64,000 bases of DNA from Deltaproteobacteria bacterium (GTDB taxonomy: Bacteria > Desulfobacterota > Syntrophobacteria > Syntrophobacterales > Syntrophobacteraceae). The notes under the pieces were generated by a model that saw only the letters and a program-made list of their open reading frames with translations, did not search any database and was not told where the DNA came from. Shown piece by piece: positions 40,620 through 50,308 of this stretch (position 1 is its first letter; the number at the start of each line of letters is the position of its first letter). The DNA is taken from assembly GCA_012517315.1 (NCBI GenBank), contig JAAYVE010000059.1, positions 248,001 to 312,000 of the forward strand. Direction: 5' to 3'. A program made the position numbers and the translations under genes.

Positions 40620-41103
40620 GGATCATCCGGCCGGTCGGCGGCAAACCAGCAAGTGCCCCGGCCGGCGTGGGAACTTCACTGAGGGTGAGTTCCTCTCCCC
40701 CCCGAAGGAACCCCATTTGCACCAAATTGCAGTTGCTCAATTCTTGCTGCTGAATCAATTCCCCATTCCGAAGGGTTGGGGCCCTCCCTGCAAGGCGGTT
40801 GCCCTGAGCCGCGTTTCGTGCCCGCACCCATGAGACAGCCCTGAAACGGAAGACATCATCCCCCGGCCGCACTGCCCCCCCTTCCTCCCAATGGTCGGGT
40901 TTCCCATTCGCTGAACGCACGATGGAATCCGTTCCCATCCTTGACCGAGCATCCGGTCTTGGTTGAAGACTGGTCCTTTACCTGGAGAGGGGGAAAGCTT
41001 TCGGGAAGAACTCCGGGCAAAGTCGGTTACACCCCGCCTCTGGAGATCCGCATTCTCGTGAGCTTCATGTGCAAGGGGCTCTGCATGCCTTTGTCCTTTT
41101 GTG

Positions 41104-41132
41104 TTGACCTGGAGCAGAAAAGAGGCTATGGA
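41104..41132 (+). promoter_or_regulatory. Candidate promoter of the selenoprotein hydrogenase operon
   Basis: TTGACC, 17 bp, TATGGA. The -35 is good and the -10 poor (three of six). The predicted start falls at the beginning of the tandem repeats. Tentative. Confidence 0.35.
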
Positions 41133-41133
41133 G

Positions 41134-41169
41134 GATTGCACAGATTGCATATATCGCACAGACCGCACA
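41134..41169 (+). repeat. Four tandem 9-bp iterons
   Basis: Four consecutive 9-mers, GATTGCACA, GATTGCATA, TATCGCACA and GACCGCACA, end 14 bp before the start codon of the hydrogenase protease. Their core GCACA/GCATA recurs every nine bases. They may be a regulator-binding array. Confidence 0.55.
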
Positions 41170-41183
41170 AATGTGGAGGGCAC

Positions 41184-41705
41184 ATGATCCCTTTCGTTCC
41201 TTTGAGAGCCAATGGGAGTCCCGGATGGCTGGAAGCCCGGATCCTCCTTTTGGGCTGCGGCAATGTTCTCTTTGGCGATGACGGTTTCGGTCCTGCGGTG
41301 GTGGAGCACCTCAACCGGAGGTGTGTGCTGCCTCCGTGGGTACGGGCGGAGGACGTGGGCACCGGGGTGAGGGATTTGCTCTTCGATCTCCTCTTGTCCG
41401 AGAGGCGTCCACAGAGAATCTTCGTCGTGGACGCTGTCCACGGCAGTGGGCGCAACCCAGGGGAACTTCTGGAGGTTCCCATGGATGCCGTTTCCCCCGA
41501 GAAGTCCAATGATTTTTCCGTGCACCACTTCCCGTCGCTCAATCTCCTGCGGGAACTGGCGGAGGTGGACGGGTTGGAGCTCTGCATTCTGGGGGCTCAG
41601 GTGAAGGAGATCCCTTCCGTGGTGCGGCCGGGTCTTTCCCCGGAGGTGGCTGCGGCGGTTCCTCGAGCCGTCGATTGGCTCCTCGAGCGGATCCGCTGGG
41701 GATGA
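41184..41705 (+). CDS. Hydrogenase maturation protease
   Basis: HyaD/HycI/FrhD-type endopeptidase, 173 aa, which clips the C-terminal tail of the [NiFe] large subunit after metal insertion. The nickel-sensing motif [20 protein letters not shown] at about residues 22-41 carries the conserved acidic residue, [10 protein letters not shown] the second Asp, and [10 protein letters not shown] the His. It heads the hdrA-mvhD-frhB-mvhG-mvhA cluster, whose MvhA has the expected C-terminal extension. The ATG is preceded by GGAGGG. The frame is open 81 codons upstream without family resemblance. Confidence 0.88.
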
Positions 41706-41754
41706 GGAGTGGTCCTGGGGCGAGCTACGATGGAAAACTGGAGGGAAGGAAGGC

Positions 41755-42033
41755 ATGATCATCGTTCATATCACTGCGCTTGCCCAGGCGCTGGGCGTCC
41801 ATCGCAACACGATTCGCAACTGGATGAAAAGCGGGAGGATTCGAGCCCGCTCCGCCCCGGGGAAAGGCATTCTTTTCAGCCGCAAGGATTTTGATGACTT
41901 CTGCCAGGCATTTCGACTGGAACCCGAACATCTGGTTTTCAAGGAATTGTCTCTGCCTCTGGTCCCTGCAACGGTGGACGCTGCGCCAGAGGAAGGTCTC
42001 AACCATGTCCCATCCACTTCGAGGGAGGATTCC
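41755..42033 (+). CDS. Helix-turn-helix module in frame with HdrA
   Basis: The reading frame of hdrA is open from an ATG at 41755 with its own GGAAGG ribosome-binding site. The first 50 codons encode an excisionase/MerR-type DNA-binding domain: [20 protein letters not shown], then [21 protein letters not shown] 40-residue linker joins it to the HdrA start, and there is no stop codon before the UGA at 42211. So the module is either fused to HdrA or, if UGA terminates translation, yields a 152-aa product. Which form exists is unknown. Confidence 0.65.
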
Positions 42034-45000
42034 ATGTCAGGGAAAATTACAGGAGCCGTCCTGGTGGTCGGTGGCGGTATCGCCGGCATCCAGGCGGCGC
42101 TGGATTTGGCCGACTCCGGCTACAAAGTCCATCTCTTGGAAAAGACAAGCGGTATCGGCGGCAAGATGGCCCAGTTGGACAAGACCTACCCGACGAACGA
42201 CTGTGCCATGTGAATCATCTCACCCAAGTTGGTTGAGTGCGGTCGGCACTTAAACATCGAGATCCACACACTCTCCCGCGTCACCGAGGTCCTGGGAAAG
42301 AAAGGCAATTTCAACGTCACCGTCGAGCAGAAACCACGCTATGTGGACATGGACAAGTGCATCGCCTGTGGTCTGTGCACGGAGAAATGCCCCAAGGCGG
42401 TTCCCGACGAGTTCAACATGGGGGTGGGCAAGCGCAAAGCCATCCACATCAAGTACAGCCAGACGGTTCCCTTGAAATATGCCATCGACTCAGGAAACTG
42501 CCTCTACTTCCTCAAGGGAAAATGCAAAGCCTGTGAGAAATTCTGTCCCACAGGCGCCATCAATTTCCAGGATCAACCGCGAAAGATCTCCCTCAATGTG
42601 GGGTCCATCATTCTCGCTCCAGGTTACGAGCCCTTCGATCCCGCCAAGGCCGACATCTATGGCTACGGCCGGATAGCCGATGTGGTGACGGGCATGGAGT
42701 ATGAGCGTCTGCTGTCTGCGGGGGGTCCCTTTCAGGGGCATCTCCTTCGACTTTCCGACAACCGGGAACCGAAAAAGATCGCCTGGATCCAGTGCGTGGG
42801 ATCCCGCACAAAAAACTGCGGCAATCTTTACTGCTCCAGCGTCTGCTGCATGTATGCCGTGAAACAGGCCGTTGTGACGGCGGAACACCTCCACGGCGAC
42901 GATGTGAGCCAGACCGTCTTTTTCATGGATCTGCGGAGTCATAGCAAGGAATTCGAGCGCTACTACGAGGACGCACGTTCCAGGGGAGTGCGCTTTTTGA
43001 GAACTCGCCCTCATTCCATCATGCCGGGGAAGAACAATATCGGCGTATCCATCGAGTACACCAACGACCGGGGGCAGCGGGTGGAGGAAGGCTTCGACAT
43101 GGCGGTTCTTTCGGTGGGTCTACAGGCGCCTCCCGACGCACTGGAACTGGCCGAGGTCTGTGGAATTGAACTGGATCGCTATCATTTCGCGGTCACGGAA
43201 AGCTTTAATCCGGTGGCCACAAACCGTGACGGCATTTACGTGTGCGGTGCCTTCCAGGGTCCCAAGTCCATTCCAAGGTCGGTTACGGAGGCATCGGCGG
43301 CCGCTTGCGTGGCGGGCAGGAGTCTCTTGGAGGCGCGGGGTACATTGACCCTGGAGAAGACGTATCCCGAGGAGCGGGATGTCTCGGGTGAGGAACCCCG
43401 CATCGGGGTTTTCGTCTGTTCCTGCGGTATCAATATTGCCGGCGTCGTGAGGGTTCAGGAGTTGGCGGAGTATGCCCGGGGGCTTCCTTCCGTCGTGCAT
43501 GTGGAGAACAATCTCTTCACCTGTTCCACCGACACCCAGGACCTGATCGCCGCTTCCATCCATGAGCACAGGCTCAATCGAATCGTGGTGGCAGCATGCA
43601 CACCGCGCACCCACGAGCCCCTTTTTCAGGACACCCTTCGCGAAGCGGGACTCAATGCCTATCTCTTGGAAATGGCGAACATCCGCAACCAGAATTCCTG
43701 GGTCCATCAGAAGGACGCGGAAGCGGCGACGGCCAAGGCCAAGGACCAGGTGCGGATGGCCGTGGCCAAGGCGGCCTTGAACGCCCCGCTGAGCCGCATG
43801 ACCGTTCCCGTGGTGCAGAAGGCCCTCGTCATTGGGGGTGGCATCGCCGGCATGACCGCTGCCCTGGAATTCGCTGAAAAGGGGTATCCGACGATTCTTG
43901 TGGAAAAAAGTGATCGACTGGGAGGCAATGCCTGGCACATCGGCAGGACCGCAAGGGGCGAAGAGGTGAGGGCTGTGCTCCTGGAAATGATCCCCAGGGT
44001 GGAAAACCATCCGGAGATCACGGTGCTGAAAAGAGCCCAGGTGGTTTCCGTGAGGGGTTCCGTCGGCAATTTCGTGAGCGAGCTGGAAGTGGAGGGCAAG
44101 CGCCGGACGGAAGAGTACGGCGTGGCCGTGGTGGCCACGGGTGGAAGGGAATACCAACCCGAAGAGTATCTCTACGGCAGGGATCCCAGGGTCATGACCC
44201 ACCTCCAGTTCGATGAGGAACTGAGGGAACGGGCGCCGTCCATCCACAAGGCACGCAGTGTGGTGTTCATCCAGTGCGTGGGGTCCCGCCAACCGGGCCG
44301 CCTCTACTGCAGCAGGGTGTGCTGCACCCATACCGTGCAGAGTGCCCTCAGACTCAAGGAAATGAACGCGGAGATGGACGTAACGGTGCTCTACCGGGAC
44401 ATGCGCACCTACGGCACGCGGGAAGAGCTCTATTTCCGGGCACGGGAACTGGGGGTGCTTTTCCTGCGCTATTCTCTGGCTTCCAAGCCTTCGGTGTTCC
44501 AGGAGGGGGGGCAATTGTGCGTGGAGGTTTTCGATCACGTGCTGGAGCGCCCCGTGCGAATTTCCGCGGATTATCTCGTTCTGGCCTCAGCCATCCTTCC
44601 CAACGACATTCAGGGACTGGTGGAGCTCTATAAGTGCGGAGTCAATGAGGACGGTTTCGTCAATGAAGCGCATCCGAAGCTGCGACCGGTGGACATGACG
44701 GTGGACGGCATGTTCGTGGCCGGATTGTGCCACTATCCCAAGCCCATGGACGAGGCGGTAGCGCAGGCACAGGCGGCCGTATCCAGGGCTGCGGTGCTTC
44801 TGGCCAGGGAACGGCTGCAGTTGGACGCCGTAAAAAGCTATGTGACGGAGCGATGCGACGGTTGCGGCCTGTGTCTGGATGTCTGTCCGTACATGGCCAT
44901 ACGGCTCGAAGAGTACGAAAAGGAGGGGAAGGTGCATCGGCGGATTGCTACTGACAAGGCACTATGCAAGGGGTGCGGCCTGTGTGAGGCGACGTGCCCC

Positions 45001-45078
45001 AAAGAGGGCGTGATGGTTCACGGCTTCACCCTGGACCAGCTTAGAGCCCAGGTGAACGCCCTGGTGGAAGCCCTGTAA
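42034..45078 (+). CDS. hdrA: Selenocysteine-containing HdrA (double HdrA type)
   Basis: Flavin-bifurcating core of heterodisulfide-reductase-like complexes. An in-frame TGA at 42211-42213 follows NDCAM and precedes [12 protein letters not shown]; this is a Sec position known in HdrA, so the gene encodes 1014 aa with Sec60. The first FAD loop VVGGGIAGI is at residues 11-19. Ferredoxin motifs [12 protein letters not shown] and CKACEKFCP follow at about 109 and 163. A second HdrA-like half has VIGGGIAGM at about 598, and C-terminal [12 protein letters not shown] and [12 protein letters not shown] clusters. GGGAGG lies six bases before this ATG. It should pass electrons between MvhD, ferredoxin and another acceptor. 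Confidence 0.92.
42233..42253 (+). other. SECIS-like hairpin of hdrA
   Basis: An 8-bp stem (42233-42240 with 42246-42253, one G-U pair) closes a GGTCG loop; the apical GGUC matches the core of the E. coli fdhF SECIS loop recognised by SelB. The stem begins 19 nt after the UGA. A smaller alternative hairpin lies at 42219-42237. Confidence 0.65.
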
Positions 45079-45175
45079 GTCCGGTCCGGAAAAGGGAGCA
45101 AGGGGGGCCGATCGCCTCTTTTCCCCTGACCGGTGAGGATCCGTGGGAATCGATCCATAGACGAGAGGTGACACA

Positions 45176-45607
45176 ATGTCGAAAACCTTTGAACCGGTGA
45201 TCGCAGGTTTTCTCTGCAATTGGTGCGCATACGCCGGGGGGGATCTGGCGGGGGTTTCGAGACTCCAGTACCCTCCCAATATGCGCGTCATCCGGACCAT
45301 GTGTTCGGGCATGGTCCATCCCAACCTGGTGGTGGAAGCCCTTCAGCGGGGAATCGACGGCGTCATTGTCATGGGGTGACACCCGGGTGACTGTCATTAC
45401 CTGGATGGTAATCACAAAGCATTGGCAAGGGCGAGGGCCATCGAAATGGTGCTGGAGGAGCTGGGCATCGACCCGGCCCGGTTTGCCATCGAATGGGTCT
45501 CTTCGGCGGAGGCGCCCCGTTTTGCGGAGGTGGTGACGCGGTTTACGGAAACCATCCGGCGGCTGGGTCCCAATCCGATGAGACCGGAGATGGCTCAGGC
45601 GGTTTGA
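45176..45607 (+). CDS. mvhD: Selenocysteine-containing MvhD (hydrogenase iron-sulfur delta subunit)
   Basis: [2Fe-2S] adaptor that passes electrons from hydrogenase to HdrA. The TGA at 45377-45379 sits in GVIVMG-Sec-HPGDCHY, where Cys is usual and Sec is known in MvhD/FrhD. The full product is 143 aa with Sec68, starting MSKTFEPVIAGFLCNWCAY; other cluster ligands are CNWC and MCSG. The same frame continues after the TGA with YLDGNHKALARARA and ends in MRPEMAQAV. It lies 97 bp after hdrA. A conventional reading would give two broken ORFs. Confidence 0.92.
45396..45412 (+). other. SECIS-like hairpin of mvhD
   Basis: A perfect 6-bp stem ATTACC/GGTAAT with loop TGGAT begins exactly 16 nt after the UGA. 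The mvhA hairpin has the same loop and the same spacing. Confidence 0.6.
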
Positions 45608-45653
45608 GAGGAGACGGTGAGATGCGCCGCACCACGACGAGATGGGAGGAACC

Positions 45654-46784
45654 ATGAAGACATTTTTCCACCTGATCCAGGAAGTGCAGAAGCCCGGCCT
45701 CTGCCACCACTGCGGGGGGTGCGTCACCTTTTGCACCGCCATCAACTATGGTGCTCTGGAACTCGATCCTGACGGCAGGCCCCGCTACAGAGACATCGAG
45801 AAATGCATCGAATGCGGCCTGTGTTACTCCATTTGCCCGGAAATCTCGGAACTGGACGAGGAGACCCGGCGGATGGTTTCCTGGAGTGCACCCATCGGCC
45901 GCATGTTGGAGTTGACCATTGCCAGGGCCACCGACTCGGAGGTGCGCAGGCGGGCCACCGACGGCGGGGTTGTGACCGCACTGCTACTCCACCTGTTGGA
46001 CATCGGTCGGATCGACGGAGCCATCGTCAGCCGCCCTGCAGGGCCTTTCATCCGCGAACCCTGGCTGGCTGTCACACGGGATGAGATTCTGGAGGCCGCT
46101 GGTTTTCATTTTGACACCATGCACGGTATGACCCACTTTTCGCAAGTCCTTTCAGGAACCTATTCCACCTTTTCCCCCTCCATCATGAAGCTGGGCGAAA
46201 TTTCCAGGAAGAGGCTGAGTCGGGTGGCTTTCGTGGGGACGCCCTGTCAGATCAATACCCTAAGGCGGATGGAGTGCCTGGGTGTGGTCCCGTCGGGGAC
46301 TATCCTGTATCATCTCGGGCTGTTCTGCACTGGCAACTTCACTTTTGGGGTGAGGGAACGGGAACGATTGGAAGAGGTTGGCGAATTCGCCTGGGGCGAC
46401 GTGGCCAAGGTGAATGTGAAGGAGGACCTGACGGTTCACCTGGTGGACGGCCAGGTGCGGCGTATTCCCCTGAACCGGCTGGATTTCATGAAACGTTACG
46501 CATGTCGATACTGTGGTGACTACACCTCCGAATACGCGGACCTCTCCTTCGGTGGGATCGGCGCACCGGAAGGGTGGACGACCGTCATCGTCCGTTCCCC
46601 CCTGGGACGGGCGATCCTCGCCGACGCGAAGGAGAAGGAAATCGAGGAGATGGAACGCGGCGCACGCCGGGAGGCGGTCCGCAGGGCGACGGAAAAGGTG
46701 CTGGATTGGTCCGCGCGGAAGAAAGAAACGGCCTGCCGCCACCATGAGGAACTGAAAACCAGGTCCATCACAGTAAAAGGATAG
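45654..46784 (+). CDS. FrhB/FdhB-family iron-sulfur flavoprotein
   Basis: 376-aa homologue of the coenzyme F420 hydrogenase/dehydrogenase beta subunit. N-terminal ferredoxin cysteines CHHCGGCVTFC and CIECGLCYSICPE bind two [4Fe-4S] clusters. The catalytic-domain signatures RRRATDGGVVTALL, RVAFVGTPCQI and RYACRYCGDYTSEYADLSFG follow; relatives bind FAD there. It lies between mvhD and mvhG where methanogen clusters would carry hdrB/hdrC or nothing. It may connect the bifurcating complex to F420, NAD(P) or a thiol carrier; the acceptor cannot be read from sequence. GGAGGA precedes the ATG. Confidence 0.88.
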   Translation: MKTFFHLIQEVQKPGLCHHCGGCVTFCTAINYGALELDPDGRPRYRDIEKCIECGLCYSICPEISELDEETRRMVSWSAPIGRMLELTIARATDSEVRRRATDGGVVTALLLHLLDIGRIDGAIVSRPAGPFIREPWLAVTRDEILEAAGFHFDTMHGMTHFSQVLSGTYSTFSPSIMKLGEISRKRLSRVAFVGTPCQINTLRRMECLGVVPSGTILYHLGLFCTGNFTFGVRERERLEEVGEFAWGDVAKVNVKEDLTVHLVDGQVRRIPLNRLDFMKRYACRYCGDYTSEYADLSFGGIGAPEGWTTVIVRSPLGRAILADAKEKEIEEMERGARREAVRRATEKVLDWSARKKETACRHHEELKTRSITVKG

Positions 46785-46793
46785 GAGGAGCCC

Positions 46794-47738
46794 GTGGCAG
46801 TCAAAGTGGCCTCTGAATGGCTCAATTCATGCTCCGGATGTGAAATCGCCATCCTAAACCTGGGGGAGACGCTCCTCGACGTGCTCGAGCAAATCGAGTT
46901 CGTCCATATGCCGGCTCTCTTGGATCACAAGTACTTTGGACAAAAGGGGGAAAGGGAGATCCATAAACTGGAGATTCCCAAGGCAACCGTTGGGATCATC
47001 AGCGGCGGCATACGCAATGAGGAGCACGTGGAAGTGGCCGAGGCGATGCGCAGGAACTGCGATATCATCGTCGCCCTGGGCACGTGTGCCACTCACGGGG
47101 GGATCCCGGCTCTCATCAACCAGTTTTCCAATGCTGCCCTCTTTGACCGGGTTTACCGGGAATCGGAGACGACCGATCCCCATGAGGATCCCGCCGACCC
47201 AGTCCTACCGGTGACTTTGGACCGGTCTTACGCCCTTGACGAAAAGATCCACGTGGACCTTTTTCTGCCCGGTTGCCCACCGCACCCGGACTGGATTGAG
47301 GAGGCAATCAGGGCCCTGTTGGAAGGTCGCGCCCCTCAACTGCCGGAGAAGAGCGTTTGTGATACCTGCCCCACGATCAAGGAAGGGAAAGGGAAACTGA
47401 AAAAACTCCATCGTTTCACGAGGAATGCCCATTTCGATGCCAACAGGCCGGTGAGTGCAATGCGATGTCTCCTGGAGCAGGGGTTGCCGTGCATGGGGCC
47501 TGTCACGCGAGCGGGATGCGCCGGGAGGAACGGAGAGGCACCCCAGTGCATCCGGGCCCGCGTCCCCTGCCAAGGATGTTACGGTCCTGTGAAGAGGGAT
47601 GGCAACCAACTGCTGGATTATCTCAATGCTCTTGCCAGCAACCAGATCGATCTCGCCTCGATCATCGATCGGTCGACGCTCCTCGAGTTTTCAGGGGCCC
47701 ACGGTCTGCTGAGGAGCAAAGCCGTCGGCAAGCAATAA
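46794..47738 (+). CDS. mvhG: [NiFe]/[NiFeSe] hydrogenase small subunit, MvhG-like
   Basis: Electron-transfer subunit of a cytoplasmic group-3 type hydrogenase, 314 aa, starting at GTG with AGGAGGAG upstream. The proximal cluster ligands are visible in NSCSGCEIA, ALGTCATHGG and LFLPGCPPHPDWIEEA. Additional C-terminal cysteines (SVCDTCP and GPVTRAGCAG, VPCQGCYGP) supply the medial and distal clusters. There is no Tat signal, in line with a cytosolic Mvh enzyme. It is separated from FrhB by 9 bp and from mvhA by 9 bp, so the genes are tightly cotranscribed. Confidence 0.94.
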   Translation: MAVKVASEWLNSCSGCEIAILNLGETLLDVLEQIEFVHMPALLDHKYFGQKGEREIHKLEIPKATVGIISGGIRNEEHVEVAEAMRRNCDIIVALGTCATHGGIPALINQFSNAALFDRVYRESETTDPHEDPADPVLPVTLDRSYALDEKIHVDLFLPGCPPHPDWIEEAIRALLEGRAPQLPEKSVCDTCPTIKEGKGKLKKLHRFTRNAHFDANRPVSAMRCLLEQGLPCMGPVTRAGCAGRNGEAPQCIRARVPCQGCYGPVKRDGNQLLDYLNALASNQIDLASIIDRSTLLEFSGAHGLLRSKAVGKQ

Positions 47739-47747
47739 GGAGGAGAC

Positions 47748-49250
47748 ATGTCCGCAAAGACAGTGGAAGTGAATGCCACCGGGGTCATGAGCCACGGCGG
47801 CAACGGTCACAAGGTGATCAACATCCAGCCGGTGACCCGCATCGAGGGGCACGCACGGATCACCATCATGCTTGACGACGCCGGCAACGTGGCCGACGCC
47901 CGGCTGAATATCATGTCCCTGAGGGGGTTCGAGAAATTCATCGAGGGAAAACCTGCGGAGGAGGTGCCCAGGATCGTTAGCCGCATCTGCGGCATTTGCC
48001 CGTGGATGCATCACACTGCTTCCAACAAGGCCGTGGATGGCTGTTTCCATGCGGAGGTGCCGCCTGCGGCCCACAAGCTGCGGGAGTTGATGCAAGTCAT
48101 GGCCCAGATCAACGACAAGATTCTCCACTTCTTTTTCCTGGCGGCCCCTGACTTTGTCATGGGTTCGGGAGCGGATTATTCCGTGCGCAATGTCATGGGC
48201 ATCGTGAAAGCCGCTCCCGACTTGGCAAGGAAAGTGGTGAAGATGCGCCAGGCCGGCCAGATGATGCTGGAGAGTTTTGCTGGCAGGGCGATCCACCCCG
48301 TCGTCGTCGTCCCAGGAGGCTTCGCCAAACCCATGGGCGAGGAAGAACGGCAAGGGCTTCTCAAAGCAGCCCGTGAGCAGCTCGAATTCGCTCGATACGC
48401 CATCGATTTCTCCAAGAGGGAGATCTTCCAGAGGATGGAACCCGCGACGGCGGATCTGGGGAGAATCACCACGGGCTTTCTGGGGACGGTGAAACCGGAA
48501 GACGGGTCCCTTACGCTCTATGACGGAGTTCTTCGCCTCATGAAGGCGGACGGAAGCTACCAGGATTTCCCCTACGACGAATACGTCGAGATCCTGGGTG
48601 AACACGTGGAGGACTGGTCCACGAGCAAATTCCCCTATGCCCGTTCGTGGAATGAGGGGTTCTCCATGGATCTTGGCGACCCCAGGGGTATTTACCGGGT
48701 GAACACCCTGGCGCGCCTCAACGTTTGCGACAGGATCGAGACCCCCCTCGCCCAAGCCGAACTGGAGGAATTTCGGAGCCGTTTCGGTAGACCGGCCCAG
48801 TCCACCATGCTGTACCATTGGGCCAGGCTTATCGAGCTGGTTTACGCCTGTGAGCGGGTCATCCAACTCCTGGAAGATCCGGAGATCACCGATCTCCACG
48901 TGCGCAACGAGGTCCTGCCGCGTGCGGGAAGGGGCATCGGGTGCGTCGAGGCCCCCCGGGGAACCCTCATTCACGACTACTCAACGGACGACAACGGGCT
49001 CATTTTGAGGGCCAACCTCGTGGTCGGGACCACCCATAACGTGGCCCCCATGAACATGAGTGTCCAGCAGGCGGCTCGGAGCGTCATCTCCAGGGGCCGG
49101 GTGAGTGAAGAAGCACTCAACAAGGTCGAGATGGCCCTTCGATGTTACGACCCCTGACTGAGCTGTGCAACGCACCGCCTGGATGGCGGTCGTATGGTGG
49201 AAATCGAGGTCTTCGACGCCCGGGGCAACCGATTGACCAAGACGTTCTGA
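47748..49250 (+). CDS. mvhA: [NiFeSe] hydrogenase large subunit, MvhA-like with C-terminal Sec
   Basis: Catalytic subunit for H2 oxidation or production. The N-terminal nickel ligands are in RICGICPWMHH. At the C-terminal motif, normally DPCxxCxxH, the sequence reads Asp-Pro-TGA-Leu-Ser-Cys-Ala-Thr-His, so the TGA at 49155-49157 is Sec470 in the nickel site. The frame continues 30 codons to a TGA at 49248, giving 500 aa, with a 24-residue tail after the His for the maturation protease encoded at 41184. Stopping at the first TGA would remove two nickel ligands and make an inactive protein. Confidence 0.93.
49174..49190 (+). other. SECIS-like hairpin of mvhA
   Basis: A perfect 6-bp stem ACCGCC/GGCGGT with loop TGGAT begins 16 nt after the UGA, matching the mvhD element in loop and distance although the stem bases differ. 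Confidence 0.65.
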
Positions 49251-49267
49251 CCGTCCGGTTCCTATGA

Positions 49268-49301
49268 GAGAGGAGGCCGGGTGGATCCCACCGCTCCTCT
49301 C
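49268..49301 (+). terminator. Terminator-like hairpin after mvhA
   Basis: GAGAGGAG and CTCCTCTC pair around an inner GGTGG/CCACC stem, 18 bp after the true mvhA stop. No clear T-run follows. Confidence 0.5.
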
Positions 49302-49429
49302 CTAAGTCTCTTCATGCCCACTGAAACCCAATCCCGCCGCAGGAGCTTTTCCCCCTCCCTGCCCCCCCTTTCCGGTGGAAACCGTGTGAAAGAACTCCTG
49401 AAACCTTATTGACGCCGATTCTTACGCCT

Positions 49430-49459
49430 TTCGTAACATCCCGCAACGCATTCGTAACA
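49430..49459 (+). repeat. Direct repeat TTCGTAACA
   Basis: Two identical 9-mers at 49430-49438 and 49451-49459 are spaced 21 bp start to start, two helical turns, just upstream of the acyltransferase gene. Possibly an operator. Confidence 0.4.
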
Positions 49460-49480
49460 GGGAAGGGATAGAGTCTGTGC

Positions 49481-50308
49481 ATGGGACGGATGAAAATACG
49501 GGAGGTGAACGCTTTGGAGCGTGGGAAGGCAAAGGTGCAGCAGTGTCATGACCCGACCAGGCTTCTTGCGGTGCGTCTGCTGCACCGGCTTTTCATTCCC
49601 TGGGTCGCCGTGGAGGACGAAAAACGCTTGCCATTGGACGGCAACGCCAAGATCTTCGCCTTCAATCACAACAACTCCTTTGAGACCCTCCCTCTCGCTC
49701 TCTATCTTGCTTTCAAGCGCAGAGGAATGGGGCTCACCTTCCTCAGCGACTGGATGTACGGGCGTCTTCCCGTAATCGGCTGGCTCTTTCGTCAGGTGGA
49801 TCCGGTCTACGTGGGTAACAAACCCGCCCGATACGGCTTTCTCAACCGCGGTCGAAGGCGGACCTCCATCGCGGTGAAAGCCTATGCGGAATGCATTGAA
49901 AGGCTCAAGAAAAATGAAAGCATCGGCATTTTTCCGGAGGGCACAAGGAATAGATGCCCCGATTTGCTCCTTCGGGGGCGGCAGGGCATCGGGGAGATCG
50001 TGCTCCGCTCGGGAGTCCCCGTTGTTCCCATCGGCATCGATTTTCCCACACGGCTGAAGCGGGGATACATCCCGGTGGTGGGATCCATGATTCTCAGGAT
50101 CGGGCCTTCCCTGGACTTTTCCAGGGAAATCTCGGCGGCGGCCTCGATGGAAGAAAAGGGAATCTCACCCTTTGCGCGACGGCGCATCTGGGCATTCTTG
50201 AGAAAAACGGTCACCCACTCGGTCATGAGTGTGCTGGCGGAACTCTGCGGCAAGCGATACCCGTATCCCCCGCCCGTCATGATTCCCGAAGCCGACGGAA
50301 TTTGGTGA
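49481..50308 (+). CDS. PlsC-type lysophospholipid acyltransferase
   Basis: Predicted acyltransferase, 275 aa. The catalytic HX4D-like motif is NHNNSFE (His with Glu at the acidic position). The substrate-binding motif is IFPEGTRNRCPDLLLRGRQG, followed by VVPIGIDF. No membrane anchor is prominent. Alternatives within the family include ornithine-lipid or N-acyl-amino-acid synthesis, because a GNAT protein follows 27 bp downstream. The start is ambiguous: ATG 49481, ATG 49490, or a TTG at 49514 that has the best GGGAGG spacing. Confidence 0.75.
   Translation: MGRMKIREVNALERGKAKVQQCHDPTRLLAVRLLHRLFIPWVAVEDEKRLPLDGNAKIFAFNHNNSFETLPLALYLAFKRRGMGLTFLSDWMYGRLPVIGWLFRQVDPVYVGNKPARYGFLNRGRRRTSIAVKAYAECIERLKKNESIGIFPEGTRNRCPDLLLRGRQGIGEIVLRSGVPVVPIGIDFPTRLKRGYIPVVGSMILRIGPSLDFSREISAAASMEEKGISPFARRRIWAFLRKTVTHSVMSVLAELCGKRYPYPPPVMIPEADGIW

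Follow-up and report, generated by a model that had tools for sequence, protein, structure and literature searches.

Sec-containing HdrA-FrhD-FrhG-FrhA operons (Sec, selenocysteine), equivalent to HdrA-MvhD-MvhG-MvhA, were described by Zhang et al. in 2006 from Syntrophobacter fumaroxidans and Desulfotalea psychrophila (PMC1794560). In 2009, the genome paper of Desulfobacterium autotrophicum HRM2 reported a cytoplasmic, selenocysteine-containing MvhA2DG together with a Sec-containing HdrA1 (PMC2702500), and a 2026 review counts MvhA/VhuA/VhuU, MvhD and HdrA among the selenoprotein families (PMC13188914). In Methanococcales, the Hdr-linked, F420-non-reducing [NiFeSe] hydrogenase composed of VhuA and VhuU carries Sec in place of the first Cys of the C-terminal nickel motif, and the same nickel-ligand position is occupied by Sec in the periplasmic [NiFeSe] hydrogenase HysA (5jsu, 1cc1).

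Here, we analysed a stretch of 64,000 nt (hereafter the window, within which all coordinates are given) that contains a hydrogenase cluster of this kind. The cluster comprises the same genes and the same three selenoproteins as the operons of S. fumaroxidans and D. psychrophila, and belongs to the same bacterial group, but these operons include a Sec-containing GlpC, whereas in the window mvhD and mvhG are separated by an FrhB-like gene and HdrA bears an HTH domain. As in D. autotrophicum HRM2, a cytoplasmic Sec hydrogenase is clustered with a Sec-HdrA, although the HRM2 cluster is from another species and adjoins the periplasmic HysAB. In contrast to Methanococcales, where the Sec motif lies on the separate small subunit VhuU (a split form that has been solved, 9sfi) and where the archaeal SECIS elements belong to a different type, the two parts are fused in the window. 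The MvhA of Methanothermococcus thermolithotrophicus (5odc_F), the best structural match, is archaeal, with Cys at the Sec position in the family of the deposited chain sequence, and HysA is only a distant relative, periplasmic and associated with another small subunit. Since such clusters were already described in 2006 and 2009, the Sec-MvhA type is known from sulfate-reducing and syntrophic bacteria, and its recognition in the window is correct without being new.

The UGA codon of mvhA and its conservation

The mvhA gene starts at ATG 47748, and codons 466–476 (49143–49175), which share its frame, read TGT TAC GAC CCC TGA CTG AGC TGT GCA ACG CAC, i.e. C-Y-D-P-U-L-S-C-A-T-H with TGA as Sec. 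Under translation table 11, the open reading frame halts at this TGA after 469 aa, whereas its reading as Sec leads to a product of 500 aa terminated by the TGA at 49248–49250, including 24 residues (RLDGGRMVEIEVFDARGNRLTKTF) beyond His476. The initial annotation had placed the real end of the gene at 49250, with the TGA completing the nickel motif, and had proposed both the numbering of His476 and the length of the tail; read-through translation reproduces these statements exactly, and the TGA at codon 470 is kept in 53 of 57 loci. Its warning that a call ending at 49157 would lose two nickel ligands was equally well founded, as U470 and C473 both lie at or beyond the TGA. The read-through product passes the PF00374 model (E-value 3.7e-35; 122.3 bits for a gathering score of 25.8) and contains both the N-terminal RxCGxC and the C-terminal DP(C/U)xxCxxH nickel-ligand motifs, with C81 and C84 of RICGIC, U470, C473 and H476 being invariant in the alignment, where U is shown as C. 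The features of the whole cluster are collected in Table 1.

Table 1. Coordinates of the cluster genes, Sec codons and hairpins within the window
Feature	Position	Strand	Evidence or remark
HycI-family hydrogenase maturation protease gene	41184–41705	+	PF01750, E-value 6.9e-16; start approximate
hdrA, with Sec codon 42211–42213 (NDCAMU) and N-terminal HTH_17	41755–45078	+	Alternative start ATG 42034
hdrA hairpin	42233–42253		
mvhD, with Sec codon 45377–45379 (MGUHPGDCHY)	45176–45607	+	PF02662, E-value 2.5e-52
mvhD hairpin, UUACC-UGGAU-GGUAA	45397–45411	+	Spacing of 22 nt, as in mvhA
FrhB/FdhB-like iron-sulfur flavoprotein, between mvhD and mvhG	45642–46784	+	PF04432, PF04422, Fer4
mvhG, small subunit	46794–47738	+	PF01058, E-value 1.6e-29; NF045875 (VhuG-like), below cut-off
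mvhA, Sec-containing [NiFe(Se)] hydrogenase large subunit, natural VhuA+VhuU fusion type, 500 aa	47748–49250	+	PF00374, VhuA/VhuU models, AlphaFold match
UGA selenocysteine codon (U470), inside DPULSCATH	49155–49157	+	TGA in 53 of 56 site-covering loci
mvhA SECIS-type apical hairpin, 5 bp CCGCC/GGCGG, loop UGGAU	49175–49189	+	Covariation; 22 nt between UGA and loop
C-terminal extension, 24 residues past His476, presumably cut off by a HycI-type protease	49176–49247	+	Presumed cleavage

When public genomes were scanned for the read-through MvhA, 57 loci were obtained, with a bias toward close relatives since this protein served as the seed; TGC or TGT (Cys) replaced the TGA in three of them, belonging to Planctomycetota, Elusimicrobia and Nitrospinota bins, and the site was not covered in one. 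The occurrence of the TGA at exactly codon 470 in the 53 others shows that it is not there by chance. A second survey, less biased toward close relatives, was made by searching 56 genomes of the window's class over their full length: all 28 places with at least 61% identity (window excluded) displayed exactly one internal TGA, and none of the 16 places at 41–54% identity had any. The Sec form occurs in 24 genomes of the class, often together with a Cys paralogue, and a genome from the same family as the window (G050) has three copies of it. The genome of the window itself encodes such a Cys paralogue, 41% identical, with the motif DPCLSCSTH. Among these sequences, the split between Sec and Cys homologues tracks relatedness, and mvhA displays the pattern that characterises a selenoprotein gene, namely an in-frame UGA that is kept, with Cys in other homologues. 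Past the TGA, the mean column entropy (hairpin excluded) is 1.02 bits at the first, 0.65 bits at the second and 1.66 bits at the third codon position, a variability that looks coding-like.

Hairpin, selenocysteine machinery and alternative decodings

Downstream of the UGA, the mvhA coding sequence contains a SECIS-type hairpin. In an alignment of 32 Sec genes, pairing holds for 98.8% of the cells and three of the five pairs show compensatory changes, a paired fraction and a covariation score reached by none of 500 shuffles. When extended to 65 Sec loci, all five pairs are formed in 63 and four pairs in two, with a UGGAC or UGGAU loop (UGGAY) in every locus; this loop was not found in the Cys homologues, which form 2–4 pairs at the same columns. 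The compensatory stems include CCACC/GGTGG, CTGCC/GGCAG, TTGCC/GGCAA and TCGCC/GGCGA, the last of which couples a synonymous change of the His codon with a Gly to Asp replacement. As the folding of the 52-nt mvhA segment (-16.6 kcal/mol) has a z-score of -1.2, modest for a single sequence, support for the hairpin comes from comparison and not from energy. The bSECIS model describes a loop of 3–9 nt with G in the first two positions, a stem of 4–16 bp, a distance of 16–37 nt from the UGA and a minimum free energy of at most -7.5 (PMC13188914). With its UGGAU loop, a 5-bp stem (6 bp in the window), a distance of 22 nt and -16.6 kcal/mol, the mvhA hairpin fits this description. An Rfam search with RF00031 (SECIS_1), which we take to be the eukaryotic SECIS type, gave no match in the genome or in the controls, and a permissive Rfam scan of positions 41000–49600 returned chance matches only.

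The genome (4.43 Mb, 61 contigs) encodes the complete set of SelA, SelB, SelD and tRNA-Sec expected for selenoprotein synthesis, with a canonical SelB and a canonical tRNA-Sec (UCA anticodon, 8-bp acceptor stem, G73). SelD is present in two copies; the second (G000:C42:27607-28530) has one in-frame TGA of its own and probably is a Sec-containing protein, and the other is TGA-free. In addition, two SelB paralogues were identified, which share 45% identity; the one that was compared with SelB itself showed ~30%. One of the two, with the G1 motif GHVAHGKT, adjoins a second tRNA-Sec-like UCA tRNA (G000:C43:53507-55682) that has an 8-bp acceptor stem, a 4-bp T stem with a bulged A, and A73. The other paralogue (G000:C28:2151-4103; 667 aa) has all SelB domains and an intact G1 motif, and no tRNA was found beside it in the 4.9-kb locus searched. 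The combination of UCA and A73 was observed in both genomes of the genus and in one genome of another family of the order, whereas relatives have GCA and U73 (tRNA-Cys) at the same place, indicating that the anticodon and the discriminator base changed together.

We assign a probability of about 0.95 to the functional scheme set out below, in which the UGA at codon 470 is read as selenocysteine and thereby yields a complete hydrogenase large subunit. The most serious competitor involves the second UCA tRNA and its SelB paralogue, which could insert cysteine or another residue at this codon. The pair is indeed present in the genome and resembles the selC*/SelB* systems reviewed from Syntrophobacterales and Desulfobacterales, in which selC* tRNA-Cys, some of them with an opal anticodon, accompany a second SelB (PMC7609411). 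The distribution of these components nevertheless makes such a reading improbable. The SelB paralogue is absent from 16 of the 24 genomes with a Sec-MvhA, which indicates that it is not needed to read the mvhA UGA, although for one of these 16 (G046), where no SelB at all was matched at the threshold used, the assembly may simply lack its SelB. Seven of the eight remaining genomes pair the paralogue with a GCA tRNA, the genome of the window being the exception, and Sec-MvhA is absent from a genome of the same genus that has the UCA/A73 tRNA. Furthermore, the second tRNA of the window's genome has A73 where tRNA-Cys has U73, and the mvhA hairpin is the same whether or not a genome carries the paralogue. 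A selC*/SelB* decoding of the codon as Cys was thus set aside as unnecessary. An ambiguous decoding restricted to this genus, in which the selC*-like UCA/A73 tRNA and the GHVAHGKT paralogue would compete with Sec-tRNA-Sec and deliver another amino acid under some conditions, seems to us just as improbable.

Explanations that dispense with recoding fare worse. That the TGA is a true stop, leaving mvhA truncated or decayed, agrees with the table 11 call ending at 49157, but it would leave a product devoid of U470 and C473, while dozens of species keep the TGA at this very codon and the coding sequence is conserved past it; we regard this as very improbable. Even less credit can be given to a sequencing or assembly error turning TGC or TGT into TGA: a one-base change would suffice to restore Cys, yet the TGA is common to independent genomes and isolates and the covarying hairpin is restricted to TGA-bearing genes. 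A true stop, a pseudogene and a sequencing error were therefore all ruled out by comparison, given the conservation of the TGA and a hairpin found only with it.

The gene cluster and the placement of its hydrogenase

The genes follow the order HycI-family protease, HTH-HdrA, MvhD, FrhB-like protein, MvhG and MvhA, an arrangement found repeatedly in Desulfobacterota, either including FrhB or lacking it, the FrhB/FdhB-like gene occupying the same place in many relatives. The clustering of mvhA with mvhD, mvhG and hdrA is that of a cytoplasmic, Hdr-linked MvhADG-HdrA hydrogenase. The Sec TGA is kept in 35 of 43 loci for mvhD and in 33 of the 35 loci clearly aligned at the codon for hdrA, the window being counted in both cases. 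Since hdrA and mvhD also carry a conserved in-frame TGA, the locus appears to be a cluster of three selenoproteins (HdrA, MvhD and MvhA) and not one odd gene. Calls under table 11 would also split or truncate hdrA and mvhD. The mvhD hairpin (UUACC-UGGAN-GGUAA) is near-invariant across Desulfobacterota, and the loop and 22-nt spacing that it shares with mvhA suggest a single type of SelB-binding loop for both genes.

An HTH_17 DNA-binding domain (41755–42034) is fused in frame, without any stop, to the N-terminus of the Sec-HdrA. The same fusion was observed in ~15 related loci, and GlpC-type operons bear the HTH on a GlpC-like protein instead. One possibility is that HTH-HdrA acts as a redox enzyme controlling the operon that encodes it.

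Profile models place the VhuA domain at residues 24–447 of MvhA and the VhuU domain at 452–479, and this succession of both profiles on consecutive parts of one protein identifies MvhA as the fused form of what some methanogens make as separate subunits. The archaeal equivalogs were both below their curated cut-offs, with 476.2 of 800 bits for VhuA (NF041785) and 38.1 of 70 bits for VhuU (NF041786), whose region is here fused to the large subunit; by these scores, MvhA is related to archaeal VhuA but falls outside that equivalog. The models of periplasmic [NiFeSe] HysA, NF033181 (169.7 of 600 bits) and NF045518 (146.8 of 780 bits), also missed their cut-offs, and the enzyme is of the cytoplasmic, Hdr-linked MvhA/VhuA type, not of the periplasmic HysA type. 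The AlphaFold model (mean pLDDT 78.6, with residues 474–478 below 50) matched 5odc_F best (Z 44.0, rmsd 2.0 over 424 residues, through residue 471), so that the predicted fold agrees with the sequence in indicating MvhA.

For the C-terminal end, 9sfi_M, a separate 27-residue PDB chain carrying the nickel motif, aligns through the equivalent of His476. When PDB chains were compared on the basis of their match to residues 34–54 of a 66-residue query, the matches of 9sfi_M and of the mature large subunits 6qgr_A, 9e1j_B and 5xf9_D extended as far as the His476 equivalent, and the chains ended at this residue or at the next one. These mature relatives and the HycI-type gene at the head of the cluster argue for a cleavage of MvhA after His476. 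The interpretation given in the initial annotation is supported by the Sec machinery, the covarying hairpin, the protease gene and the ends of these mature chains.

Taken together, these elements suggest the following functioning. The 47748–49250 frame would encode the large subunit of a cytoplasmic, HdrA-linked hydrogenase of the MvhA/VhuA type, the hairpin in its coding sequence, 22 nt past the UGA, allowing SelB to deliver Sec-tRNA-Sec at codon 470. The Ni-Fe centre would be held by Sec470, Cys473, Cys81 and Cys84 and, once nickel is inserted, the HycI-type protease would cut away the 24 residues that follow His476. Electrons from H2 may then pass from MvhG to the Sec-containing MvhD and on to the Sec-containing HdrA, or in the reverse direction for H2 production.

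Implications for annotation and selenoprotein biology

As far as hydrogenases are concerned, our results do not raise any new question, and the second UCA tRNA with the SelB paralogues is the one genuine loose end. They provide a clear example of a covarying SECIS element, whose loop and spacing are common to mvhA and mvhD. Finally, they correct the end of mvhA from 49157 to 49250: a table 11 call, by dropping two nickel ligands, gives a working hydrogenase the appearance of a broken one, and standard annotation would harm three genes (mvhA, hdrA and mvhD) of one electron-transfer complex.
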